A stretch of DNA of 49,079 bases from Akkermansiaceae bacterium (lineage in GTDB: Bacteria; Verrucomicrobiota; Verrucomicrobiia; Verrucomicrobiales; Akkermansiaceae): the NCBI GenBank assembly GCA_029253285.1, contig JAQWZU010000094.1, positions 1 through 49,079 on the forward strand, given 5' to 3'. Within the stretch, counting starts at the first letter, position 1. Each line of letters starts with the position of its first letter. Below the pieces are notes generated by a model. That model saw only the letters and a program-made list of their open reading frames with translations, ran no database searches and was not told the DNA's origin. The translations under genes were made by a program, and so were the position numbers. This document shows positions 8,049-12,108 of this stretch, piece after piece.

Positions 8049-9374
8049 CTATGGATCGACCAACTTGACGCGAAGAAACTCTTTCGCCGCCGACCGTGCT
8101 ATTTCTACTCGGGCGACTCCATCTTCCAGCACAATCTCCAGTCCATCCAAGGTCACCCACGAATCTCCACCAAGATCGGGACTTCCCTGAACTTCGTAGC
8201 CGAGGTCAGGCTCCCCTTCCCACTCCAAAGTCACGATCTCGTTACCCACGATAAGAGTAAGGTTTCGAATTACTTCATGCGCAAAGGGCTGCATTTCCAA
8301 GTCTAGATAAACCGGTCGGTGATCCTGATCCGAGGCGCCAAAAAGATTCCAGCCCGGTTGAGGGCTGATTGGCCAGAACACCGCCCCGCCAGTCACTTCG
8401 AACCCGGCCAGCGAGGGCAAGACATAGTCGACCCGCAGACTGAAAGTTGCAGTATTATACTTTGCGCTCTCGCTAGTCGTCCCACTTCGCTCGGGCACAA
8501 AACTCGCATTCACCTTGGGATGATTGAGTAGTTGATTGATCGCGGAATTCACACTGTCACCACGAACCGGGTCGGCATTCTGATCTCCCGCAATAACAAA
8601 ACGCTCTCCCACGGGAAAGTTGGCTCCCATGTAAGCACTCGCACCCTCCGTGAGATAATCAGCCCACATGCGAATCTCGTCGTGATTCCGTCGACCGTTG
8701 CGATCTTCCGGACCATCAAAAACCGGTGGCGTGGGATGACTCACTAAAAAATGAAACCGCCGTCCATCGACATCGATGGGCACATCCCAATGGCTCTTCG
8801 ACGAGAGACGAAAAACCCCCCGCTCATCCTCGTCATACCACGAAGCCGGCAACAAATTTCCCGGTAAATCTCTCCACAACACCTCCTCAAAAGTTCGAAT
8901 CGCATCCACATCGATGGGATATTTGGAAAACACCGCCATACCATACTTCCCTTCAAATTCACCGAAACCGAAAGCATCTCCTCCATACCCTTGATCGCCC
9001 GGGGTGTCATCGACCACGCCATTGTTATCGAAGTCGAAGCCCGAGTGAGTCCCCGTATTCGACGGCGCAGTGTAGCGATAGGGGAAATCCTGCGGAGGCC
9101 CTCCGTTCTGGCTCACCTTAAAATATTTGTCGTTAAGCCGCGTCATCGCCGTCCCATTGACGTCAAAATCAAACTCATTCAGTAAAAGCACATCCGGCTG
9201 AATGATCTGAATCATCTCGGCAACCTGCTTCGCCCGAGAATACGTCCCGGGGCGCAAGACCGCCGCCAACTCACCTTTCGTGTTTAAAGCCAAGGAAGCA
9301 TTGTAGGTCGCCACACGGATTTGGGGCGCAGCCCACATGGAAGGCATTAGAAAAAGAACGAGTAAAAACCTCAC
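8049..9374 (-). CDS. Secreted endonuclease/exonuclease/phosphatase-family protein
   Basis: This is a 441-residue protein with a signal peptide (MRFLLVLFLMPSMWAA). The EEP fold follows: IRVATYNASL at the start, the metal-binding Glu in VLLLNEFDFD, FLVSHPTPP, the Asp/Asn pair in VIAGDQNADP, and the final DQDHRPVYLDLE with the catalytic His. Such secreted enzymes hydrolyse extracellular DNA or phosphodiesters, so nutrient phosphate release is plausible. About 80 residues after the catalytic His form an extra module with YEVQGSPDLGGDSW and KEFLRVKL, a pattern seen at the C-terminus of many verrucomicrobial secreted proteins. It converges with the plus-strand gluQ operon, leaving 14 bases between stops. 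Confidence 0.85.
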   Translation of the reverse strand: MRFLLVLFLMPSMWAAPQIRVATYNASLALNTKGELAAVLRPGTYSRAKQVAEMIQIIQPDVLLLNEFDFDVNGTAMTRLNDKYFKVSQNGGPPQDFPYRYTAPSNTGTHSGFDFDNNGVVDDTPGDQGYGGDAFGFGEFEGKYGMAVFSKYPIDVDAIRTFEEVLWRDLPGNLLPASWYDEDERGVFRLSSKSHWDVPIDVDGRRFHFLVSHPTPPVFDGPEDRNGRRNHDEIRMWADYLTEGASAYMGANFPVGERFVIAGDQNADPVRGDSVNSAINQLLNHPKVNASFVPERSGTTSESAKYNTATFSLRVDYVLPSLAGFEVTGGAVFWPISPQPGWNLFGASDQDHRPVYLDLEMQPFAHEVIRNLTLIVGNEIVTLEWEGEPDLGYEVQGSPDLGGDSWVTLDGLEIVLEDGVARVEIARSAAKEFLRVKLVDP

Positions 9375-9490: not shown

Positions 9491-9513
9491 CTAATGCAAT
9501 TTTATTGCATTAG
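9491..9513. promoter_or_regulatory. Palindromic operator resembling a Zur (zinc repressor) box
   Basis: This is a perfect inverted repeat: left arm CTAATGCAAT (9491-9500), spacer TTT, right arm ATTGCATTAG (9504-9513). It ends 17 bases before the first gene of the metal-homeostasis operon. Its 23-bp size and the AATGxxAT / ATxxCATT half-sites match the layout of the E. coli Zur consensus (half-site GAAATGTTATA and its mirror). The genes downstream (a COG0523 GTPase and a MerC-like protein) are of kinds often controlled by Zur or other Fur-family repressors. That it is an operator is likely from its symmetry and place. That the regulator is Zur is inference, as no regulator gene is in the window. 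Confidence 0.65.
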
Positions 9514-9530
9514 TTAGAAGTGCAAGTAGT

Positions 9531-10130
9531 TTGCGCTTCGTGACCGGCGCCTCACCAACCATCGCACCACATTCCCTCCGTGATCTCGCTGAGGGAATTC
9601 ATCAACAGATGTATTTCTGGGGACAGGACGTTTTGCGTCCGGAGGGGAATTTTTTGGTCGAGTATGGCTTCGAACGCCTCCCCTCGTTGGGGTTAAAGGG
9701 AACCAGCCGCTATCGTTGCGAATGGCAGGGCGGATACATCGAACTTTATGGGGCTTGTGCTGGTTGGTATGGCGATGACGGAGGCTTTACCTTTATTCGT
9801 CCCCGTCACCGATGTTTCGTTTGGCTTTCGGGTGATGTCACCCCCACTCCCGGGGCGTGGGAAAACCACCTCATCGACAGGGCTGCCGGGAAGAACGAAC
9901 TCTATCAGGCTTCACTCCCCTTCATCGACTGGCTCCTTTCTTATGAAAAGGCCATTGTCAATCGCTTCGGCCTCGGCTATCGCCAAGCCAATCATGCGAG
10001 CTTCCGGAAGGTCCCCAAAGCCAAAGCATGGATCGAACCTCCGCTCGCGCTGAAATGGTTTCACAACTTCCGCAACTCTCCCGAACTGCTGGTCAGGCCC
10101 AGGAAACTTGCACGCAAAAATGATGTCTAA
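9531..10130 (+). CDS. Conserved-looking protein of unknown function, first gene of metal operon
   Basis: I cannot assign a function to this 199-residue soluble protein. It has no signal peptide or membrane helix. It is rich in aromatic residues (MYFWGQDVLRPEGN, YRCEWQGGYIELYGACAGWYGDD, FIRPRHRCFVWLSG). Three cysteines occur, but there is no clustered metal site. The frame is open from a TTG at 9531. GTG at 9540 and ATG at 9609 (start of MYFWGQ) are alternatives, none with a strong ribosome binding site. It overlaps the start of the CobW gene by 11 bases, which ties it to that gene, and it lies 17 bases downstream of the palindromic operator. A role in metal supply is inferred only from this position. 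Confidence 0.7.
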   Translation: MRFVTGASPTIAPHSLRDLAEGIHQQMYFWGQDVLRPEGNFLVEYGFERLPSLGLKGTSRYRCEWQGGYIELYGACAGWYGDDGGFTFIRPRHRCFVWLSGDVTPTPGAWENHLIDRAAGKNELYQASLPFIDWLLSYEKAIVNRFGLGYRQANHASFRKVPKAKAWIEPPLALKWFHNFRNSPELLVRPRKLARKNDV

Positions 10131-11175
10131 CGCGACAAGTCCTGCTCTTAAATCCCTGCCTCCGGTGATCGCATCACGCCCCATGCTGATGATCTCCGGC
10201 TTTCTTGGTGCCGGAAAAACCACCTTGCTTAGGGCCCTCCTTGGAGAACTCACCTCCCGCAACCTTCTCGCCGATGTCATCATAAACGACGTCGAGAACG
10301 CTGGGATCGATCGGGAAACCTTACAAGACCGCGCAGCCTCCGTCGAGGCCCTCACCGGTTCCTGCGTGTGCTGCGAAGGCATGGACTTGCTCTACGGAAT
10401 GGTTCTCAAGGCATCCAAAAGCAAGCATGATGTCCTTTTGATTGAGCTCAACGGCACAGCCGATCCTATCCCTTTGCAAGAGACCTTCACCCTCATGCAA
10501 TCTTCCTTTTTGCTTCAGCCACGCTGGCAGATCTGTGTCGTCGATGCCCGATTCTTCGGTCAGCGAGATCAGTTCCGCGGACTCGAAGGACTTCAACTCG
10601 AAAGCGCGAGTCACTACTACCTCGCCCATAGCGAGAACGCCGACGCCCAAGACCTCGCGCTACTCGAATCAAGAATCAAGTCGATTAACCCGCGCGCCAG
10701 CCGCACCAACTCTTCCGAACTCGCCACCTCTCTCAGCCAGGCGGTCCGACAAAACCGGCGCCATCACGCCGCCCTCACCAAAGAAAAACCCAAGCACGAT
10801 CTCCTTTCCAACTTCTCTCCGCGTCCCCCGGCCAAGCCACACCTTCACGACCGGCATCAACTCGCTCACGAATTCACCGGATGCAACATCGTCTTCCCAG
10901 AAGCCGTGGAGCCCTCGCGAGTCGATGCCTGGCTCAAAGAACTTCCGCCCTCGGTCATCCGCACCAAGGCGCTCCTCACCCTAAGTAACAAGCCCAACCA
11001 ACGCTTCCTCTATGAGCGAGTTGGCACGCAACTCTCACCCAGGCCGATTCCGGTCCGCGCCGTCGACTCCGTCCCCTGCTCGGCACTCTTCATCGGCTCG
11101 GATCTTCACCCAGACGAAATCCTCCGGATCACCAGCGAGGTCCTCCACCCCGATTGCCACTTTCCAGAAAAATGA
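10120..11175 (+). CDS. COG0523/CobW-family GTPase, putative metallochaperone
   Basis: This is a 351-residue P-loop GTPase of the CobW/COG0523 group, whose members deliver zinc, cobalt or other metals to proteins. It shows Walker A GFLGAGKTT (residues 27-35), VIINDVENAGID, the metal-binding CxCC motif in GSCVCC (Cys82, Cys84, Cys85), and a Walker B-like strand LLIELNGTADP. The His-containing stretch HLHDRHQLAHEF opens a CobW C-terminal domain (FPEAVEPSRVDAWLKELP). The nucleotide-specificity motif NKxD is not recognisable: HSENADAQD stands in its place before NPRA. The ATG at 10120 overlaps the preceding gene, and the stop overlaps the ATG of the next (ATGA), so all three are coupled. Confidence 0.85.
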   Translation: MMSNATSPALKSLPPVIASRPMLMISGFLGAGKTTLLRALLGELTSRNLLADVIINDVENAGIDRETLQDRAASVEALTGSCVCCEGMDLLYGMVLKASKSKHDVLLIELNGTADPIPLQETFTLMQSSFLLQPRWQICVVDARFFGQRDQFRGLEGLQLESASHYYLAHSENADAQDLALLESRIKSINPRASRTNSSELATSLSQAVRQNRRHHAALTKEKPKHDLLSNFSPRPPAKPHLHDRHQLAHEFTGCNIVFPEAVEPSRVDAWLKELPPSVIRTKALLTLSNKPNQRFLYERVGTQLSPRPIPVRAVDSVPCSALFIGSDLHPDEILRITSEVLHPDCHFPEK

Positions 11176-11816
11176 ACACCACCACTCTCACTCCTCCAGC
11201 GATCGATCTTCCGAAGGTCGACCGAATCGGCGTCGCCGCCTCCGTCCTCTGTGCCATCCACTGCGGACTCGCGCCGGTCTTACTCATCGCCATGCCCGCC
11301 TTCGGACGCATCTGGGCCCATCCCGCGTCCCATGCGCTTGTCGCGATTTTCATCGTGCCACTCGCAGCCTTCTCCATCCGCAAAGGCTATCGTGCCCACG
11401 GAAAACGCTGGGTCATGGCCTCCGCGATGATCGGAATTCTTTTCGTGCTCGTCGGGGCTGCTCTCCCGGCCTTCTCAAAGGAAACACCAGTCAACGATCC
11501 CGCTCCACAGGTCGCAGCCCCGGTCGAAACTGAAGAAACCGAAGAGGGCACCTGCGACGCCCCGACCTGTGAAGAGACCACTTGTGATTTATGCCCTTCC
11601 CTGGCCGAAACCGAAGCGTCTGACGAGCCCGCCGCCTGCATCGATAACTGCTGCCCCAGCGTGCAAGTCAGCGAGACCGGAGAAATGTCCCTGCACATTC
11701 CACCCGCCGCCATCATCACCACTCTTGGAGGAGTCTTTCTCATCGTCGCTCACATCGGCAATCTCTGTGGCTGCGCCCACGCATGCCGACAAGCCACCTG
11801 CGGCGAATGTGCATAG
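11172..11816 (+). CDS. MerC-like cysteine-rich membrane protein
   Basis: This is a 214-residue membrane protein that starts like MerC: DRIGVAASVLCAIHCGLAPVL, with the Cys27/Cys31 pair in the first helix. Further helices lie near residues 55-70, 82-102 and 178-197. MerC transports mercury in resistance operons, but many chromosomal relatives are untested. This one carries a long acidic loop (residues 103-177) with seven cysteines, in groups such as CDAPTCEETTCDLC and CIDNCC, and a C-terminal tail GNLCGCAHACRQATCGEC. There are 14 cysteines in all, far more than in classical MerC (about 140 residues). The context (COG0523 GTPase, Zur-like operator) suggests zinc or another soft metal and not mercury. 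The start overlaps the CobW stop. Confidence 0.8.
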   Translation: MNTTTLTPPAIDLPKVDRIGVAASVLCAIHCGLAPVLLIAMPAFGRIWAHPASHALVAIFIVPLAAFSIRKGYRAHGKRWVMASAMIGILFVLVGAALPAFSKETPVNDPAPQVAAPVETEETEEGTCDAPTCEETTCDLCPSLAETEASDEPAACIDNCCPSVQVSETGEMSLHIPPAAIITTLGGVFLIVAHIGNLCGCAHACRQATCGECA

Positions 11817-11829
11817 CCTTGCATCTCTC

Positions 11830-12108
11830 ATCAATGCTTCAGCCAAACTTCTGGTCACGGTTCTTTGCGGGTTTCTCGGATCGGGAAAACCAACCTGCTC
11901 CACCACATTCTCCGTAACCGTGACAACAAGCGGGCGGCCGCCAGGAGCTTGTTCTAATCGGTCGCAACATGGACTGCGACGCCCTGACCGCCATCCTCGA
12001 TGACGGCCTTCTCACCGGGGAGGAAATCGCCACCACGAGAGAAAGTGGCACAAGCTTTTCCCCGATCCTTCTCCCGAATGGAAAATGGGAATCATGGGAG
12101 ATGACTAA
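11830..12108 (+). pseudogene. Decayed second COG0523/CobW GTPase
   Basis: Three frames carry successive pieces of one COG0523 protein. Frame one, around 11845-11889, reads KLLVTVLCGFLGSGK, the Walker A strand and loop. One missing A then shifts the frame, and from 11889 the sequence continues TNLLHHILRNRDNKR, the following helix. About 250 residues are absent. The third piece, from about 11947, reads GRQELVLIGRNMDCD and AILDDGLLTGEEIA, the C-terminal domain of ZigA/YeiR-type GTPases. A further shift gives KWHKLFPDPSPEWK before TAA at 12106-12108. The remnant is therefore an N-terminus joined to a C-terminus by an internal deletion with extra frameshifts. It is a different subfamily from the intact CobW gene just upstream. 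Confidence 0.8.

Follow-up and report, generated by a model that had tools for sequence, protein, structure and literature searches.

Genes and boxes at the locus

The window, i.e., the whole stretch of 49,079 nucleotides analysed here, harbours a plus-strand operon of three genes preceded by a palindrome. An earlier sequence-only reading had listed a COG0523 GTPase and a cysteine-rich MerC-like protein as the downstream genes. Both are present, but they rank second and third, behind an unnamed gene that had been overlooked. This first gene (9531..10130) encodes 199 aa if read from TTG 9531 and 196 aa from GTG 9540. The GTG is probably the start since the homologue L236 begins there, and the intergenic gap would therefore measure about 165 bp instead of the 156 bases given by that reading. 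The second gene (10108..11175) encodes the COG0523/CobW-type GTPase (PF02492, 2.2e-25; PF07683, 1.6e-07), with the Walker A motif GFLGAGKTT and a CxCC motif, and probably starts at ATG 10120 or 10123. The third gene (11154..11816) encodes the MerC-like cysteine-rich membrane protein (PF03203, 3.2e-20). Its start is probably ATG 11172, which overlaps the stop codon of the GTPase gene. On the other flank of the palindrome, a divergent exo/endonuclease-phosphatase gene is located on the minus strand (8049-9374).

A remnant of a second COG0523 gene, with shifted frames and its middle missing, lies at 11842-12055. The stretches that remain match the CobW2-type protein of relatives at residues 10-42 and 355-393; in relatives, an intact copy adjoins the same cluster.

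As for the 196-aa protein, no match was obtained in Pfam or NCBIfam. Homologues are nonetheless present in 52 of the 190 genomes of the order. The family (L235-L264) shares the pattern QQMYFWGRDV...GTSCY...ELHGACAGWY, with near-invariant cysteines, and is repeatedly located downstream of tandem Zur-type boxes. An AlphaFold model from the single sequence had a pLDDT of 35.

The palindrome itself (box 1, 9491..9513, no strand assigned, CTAATGCAATTTTATTGCATTAG) is a predicted, perfect Zur-type operator. It is, letter for letter, the exact 10-3-10 repeat that had been announced, CTAATGCAAT-TTT-ATTGCATTAG, and it is indeed a single copy, as no other was found in the window at up to 3 mismatches. 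By composition, a window like this one should contain about 0.77 perfect inverted repeats with arms of at least 10 bp and loops no longer than 12. The geometry alone is within chance in 49 kb, and the significance of the palindrome comes from its recurrence in front of zinc genes, not from its shape. The site is best described by a 21-base core, TAATGCAA-N5-TTGCATTA, and the core of box 1 is identical in the sister species (G201). Its AATG..AT positions fit what we take to be the gammaproteobacterial Zur consensus; the inner GCAA/TTGC does not.

A second, imperfect Zur-type operator is predicted at 9517..9539 (box 2, no strand assigned, GAAGTGCAAGTAGTTTGCGCTTC) and was missed in the earlier reading. 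It carries 5 mismatches with the GCAA-N5-TTGC core intact, lies 26 bp from box 1 (centre to centre) and ends just before GTG 9540. A search around the two boxes revealed no sigma-70-like promoter.

Further sites in the same genome

The sequence-only reading had proposed to look for further sites before zinc genes in the genome and in its relatives. The assembly comprises 4.31 Mb in 224 contigs. With the degenerate core at one mismatch or less, exactly five sites were found genome-wide, one in the window (contig C94), three on C88 and one on C128, and all five adjoin zinc-type genes. The C128 box (9189-9209) lies directly upstream of a znuA-type gene, which is followed by its ABC partners. The top score of this transporter was the zinc system AztABC, and the scores of its binding protein for zinc AztC and manganese MntC were nearly tied. 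A second znuA-type gene, on C70, had no box listed nearby in the own-genome scans.

Contig C88 (14.9 kb) resembles a zinc island. It encodes a ZnuD-like TonB receptor, TonB, two choice-of-anchor M proteins, a His-rich outer-membrane-like protein and a Fur-family protein. One box lies upstream of the receptor gene and another in the 165-bp gap between tonB and the Fur-family gene. A fourth, weaker box was detected where the His-rich gene begins, so that the Fur-family gene (7583-7987 of L016, G000:C88) is situated among four boxes within 4.5 kb. The counterpart of C88 in the sister species keeps the same four-box layout.

The two choice-of-anchor M proteins of C88 (8323-9075 and 9131-10960 of L016) are secreted, one of them with a PEP-CTERM tail, and both are encoded near a Zur-type box. 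In architecture and neighbourhood, they are reminiscent of ZepA.

Recurrence across the order and beyond

At one mismatch or less, the core occurs in 63 of the 190 genomes of the order, and the reversed control pattern in none (0/190). The same core precedes the orthologous operons in the sister species and is also found in other families. Among the relatives, sites were recovered upstream of ZnuA, MerC, COG0523 and 196-aa genes, and the predicted enrichment of the motif near zinc genes was thus borne out. When one locus per genome was considered (n=30), 20 loci encoded a zinc-cluster homologue within 1.5 kb. These were chiefly ZnuA, MerC, COG0523, the 196-aa family or the His-rich outer-membrane protein; ZnuBC were also among the flanking genes. 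The choice of marker matters here. Around exact motif copies in unrelated genomes, which served as control loci, the same broad seed set also matched 38 of 106 loci, mostly via ZnuC. ABC (ZnuC) and TonB proteins are poor zinc markers, and the neighbourhood test therefore rests on the specific seeds. In the converse search, which started from the genes, a box (3 mismatches or less, within 600 bp upstream) preceded 16 of the 30 ZnuA homologues taken from the family and 13 of the 30 homologues found for the 196-aa protein, compared to 0/30 in both controls. Boxes in front of zinc-free ribosomal protein paralogues, another kind of support that had been suggested, are not to be expected, as only the zinc-free (C-) forms are listed for Verrucomicrobiae (PMC3087516, Table 2).

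In a phylum sample, the core was present in the own order and, within the same class, in 9 genomes belonging to other orders. The other classes of Verrucomicrobiota were at control level, with the core in 5 genomes and the control in 7. A scan of named genomes yielded at least about 105 exact copies outside Verrucomicrobiota. Among the matches listed, at least 20 of these have a Fur-family reading frame no more than about 230 bp away, often within 25 bp, and 20 of the 23 outside loci with any Fur-family gene have that gene beside the site. The Fur-adjoining copies belong to Burkholderiales (L091, L092, L099, L115, L127, L177, L200) and to Bacteroidota, Chloroflexi, Patescibacteria, Omnitrophota, Deltaproteobacteria and others (L102, L104, L110, L112, L121, L153, L157, L161, L182, L185, L189, L196, L198). 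The operator is therefore widely used. The suggestion that the palindrome could define the Zur motif of this lineage holds as far as its order-wide recurrence at zinc genes is concerned, but not as to specificity. A lineage-specific signature is ruled out by the exact copies beside Fur-family genes outside the phylum.

The boxes also recur in pairs. Across the 86 distinct sites considered, two centre-to-centre distances to a second box stand out, 26 bp with 10 distinct pairs and 36-37 bp with 8, against 0.24 expected by composition at those offsets; the pairs are partly non-independent, as some genomes belong to the same genus. These distances correspond to 2.5 and 3.5 helical turns. The 26-bp tandem is found before homologues of the 196-aa gene in nine genomes, i.e., the window and eight others.

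The candidate regulator

The proposal of a Zur site had been made dependent on a Zur or Fur-family gene in the genome, and five Fur-family genes are present. Two of them deserve attention, the C88 gene described above and the gene of the C139 protein. The latter is assigned to the Fur family by PF01475 (42 bits, with a cut-off of 23.1). C139-type proteins occur in 147 of the 190 genomes and in 60 of the 63 motif-bearing ones, a co-occurrence which is confounded by phylogeny, largely via the Akkermansia-like group (genus g2, whose small genomes are Akkermansia-like in size). In this group, the C139-type protein was found in none of the genomes listed and the core motif in none of those sampled, which suggests a joint loss of the zinc switch, motif and regulator together. 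Of the 147 genomes with the regulator, 87 have no site within 1 mismatch; the motif is therefore weaker or different there. Nothing places the C139 gene itself beside a site. From the Fur-family tree, only the forward-strand rows were considered, 11 rows of reverse-strand translations being left aside.

The closest solved chains to the C139 protein are Zur proteins, with SynZur (7ne9) first, then ScZur and MtZur, whereas the best structure matches of the C88 protein are PerR and Fur. The structural Cys4 site is complete, with its four cysteines, in C139 and in each of the 29 relatives compared. The canonical inter-domain sensory site of ScZur (D65, C79, H85, H87) is absent in C139 and the same 29 relatives, in which these residues are replaced by R, by L/A/others, by variable residues and by Y/F, respectively. 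Another set of ligands is retained. All 29 relatives carry H77 and H115, and 28 of them D79, the exception having E; once one alignment gap is shifted, every row listed also shows the sensory cysteine of the CPV motif. By these residues, the SynZur-type sensory site (Asp, two His, Cys) appears conserved in the C139 type.

No complete sensory site of any kind was found in the C88 protein, in which N77 and a serine at the cysteine position replace two ligands. This protein may sense something else or nothing. The C88 gene had been the obvious Zur candidate and was downgraded after the ligand check, having lost two of the four sensory ligands. Because of the Zur-like structures and the conserved ligands on one side and the ligand loss on the other, the C139-type protein is most likely the cognate zinc sensor, and C88 a diverged paralogue.

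Proposed mechanism and alternative explanations

Taken as a whole, the comparative evidence supports the Zur interpretation well, and box 1 is almost certainly a Zur docking site, judging from sequence comparison. We consider it very probable that the two boxes, the three-gene operon and the C139 sensor form a Zur repression system. When zinc is sufficient, zinc-loaded Zur dimers would sit on box 1 and probably also on box 2, which, 26 bp away, would be occupied on the opposite face of the helix. Bound Zur would block the operon for the 196-aa protein, the COG0523 GTPase and the MerC-like membrane protein. Under zinc shortage, Zur would leave the DNA, and the operon would be expressed together with the znuABC-type importer and the island of the ZnuD-like outer-membrane receptor. 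The sensor would be the C139 protein, probably with a SynZur-type site (His, Asp, Cys, His) as its sole sensory site, and C88 would be a diverged paralogue with two ligands lost. We infer binding, zinc dependence, repression and the choice of the binding paralogue from the recurrence, spacing and residue conservation described above.

The most serious alternative is that the boxes are Fur-family operators and that the C88 paralogue, not the C139 protein, acts as their cognate regulator, possibly with a response to another metal or to no metal at all. The position of the C88 gene amid four boxes within 4.5 kb, one of them in the 165-bp gap to tonB, is in favour of it. Moreover, in another genome (G130), a relative grouping with C88 lies divergent to znuA and adjoins it. 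The motif is order-wide, however, while C88 is an outlier; other genomes have the C139 type, and two of the four sensory ligands are missing in C88. We regard regulation by C88 as unlikely.

It is improbable that a Fur-family regulator responding to iron, manganese or peroxide (Fur, Mur, PerR) acts at the site. The structure matches of C88 to PerR and Fur and the about equal MntC score of the znuA-type protein would agree with such a regulator. The sites, in contrast, are flanked by COG0523, MerC, ZnuD-like and Azt/Znu genes, with none for siderophores, ferritin or catalase encountered among these neighbours, and the C139-type protein is nearest to Zur structures.

The palindrome might also act in RNA, as a hairpin (attenuator or terminator), and the region does fold better than shuffled sequences (z = -3.5). 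Nevertheless, it is the letters of the arms, TAATGCAA, that are kept across genomes, with a five-base spacer free to vary, and copies stand in tandem at a fixed 26 or 36-37 bp. The palindrome is not followed by a U-run, and the sole terminator-like match is on the other strand. No compensatory arm changes keeping the stem were found among the listed sites, which were picked by their letters. An RNA hairpin was rejected as very improbable since letters, and not pairing, are conserved. Finally, a chance palindrome, for which the expectation per window given above would leave room, was dismissed with near certainty, as the same core recurs before orthologous operons in the sister species and in other families.

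Comparison with known systems

Zur regulons with znuABC, COG0523 and TonB receptor genes are classical (PMC6103462, PMC2770081). Several Zur boxes per promoter are known from B. subtilis yciC and S. coelicolor znuA, and the enterobacterial and cyanobacterial boxes are described as clearly different from others (PMC6103462). Like the Zur boxes of other phyla (PMC6103462; RegPrecise logos), the present site is an AT-rich palindrome of about 21-23 bp before znuABC, COG0523 and TonB receptor genes, and a Fur-family regulator is common to these regulons. It differs from them in the half-sites TAATGCAA/TTGCATTA with a free five-base spacer and in the tandem spacing of 26 or 36-37 bp. The searchable literature yielded no operator definition for Verrucomicrobiales, no mention of a Zur regulon with MerC-like genes or of such a tandem spacing, and nothing directly relevant on the motif letters or on betaproteobacterial Zur boxes. 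Haas et al. 2009 (PMC2770081) described Zur-linked COG0523 genes in operons, as found here. They scanned Firmicutes and Proteobacteria profiles, and Verrucomicrobia are unmentioned in the main text.

A precedent comes from the PVC group. One study (PMC10957091) reports Fur-family genes near zepA and, in Luteolibacter yonseiensis, one perfect palindrome, 'motif 3', which is called similar to the Clostridia Zur site. Like box 1, it is a perfect palindrome in a Verrucomicrobial genome; unlike the sites described here, it is a single one. Motif 3 is likely the same as the window motif, a comparison made by description only.

With regard to the sensor, the C139 type resembles SynZur of Synechococcus WH8102 (PDB 7ne9, PMC9337993) in its structural Cys4 site, in the loss of the canonical inter-domain site and in the alternative-site residues at 77, 79, 95 and 115. 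At positions 77 and 79, however, the Verrucomicrobial protein has His and Asp the other way round. On balance, we lean towards a second Zur lineage in Verrucomicrobiales, which would combine SynZur-type-only sensing (with His and Asp swapped), tandem boxes at 2.5 or 3.5 turns, an unnamed zinc-starvation family and a widely shared operator that stands beside Fur-family genes from Patescibacteria to Burkholderiales.

These results provide a working definition of the operator, together with a candidate zinc regulon, in an order from which the searchable literature had noted only one such site. The unannotated 196-aa family is a likely component of the response to zinc starvation, and the tandem half-turn layout of the operators is testable. 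Furthermore, the C139 type offers a non-cyanobacterial Zur candidate with which to ask whether a SynZur-type site suffices as a zinc sensor.
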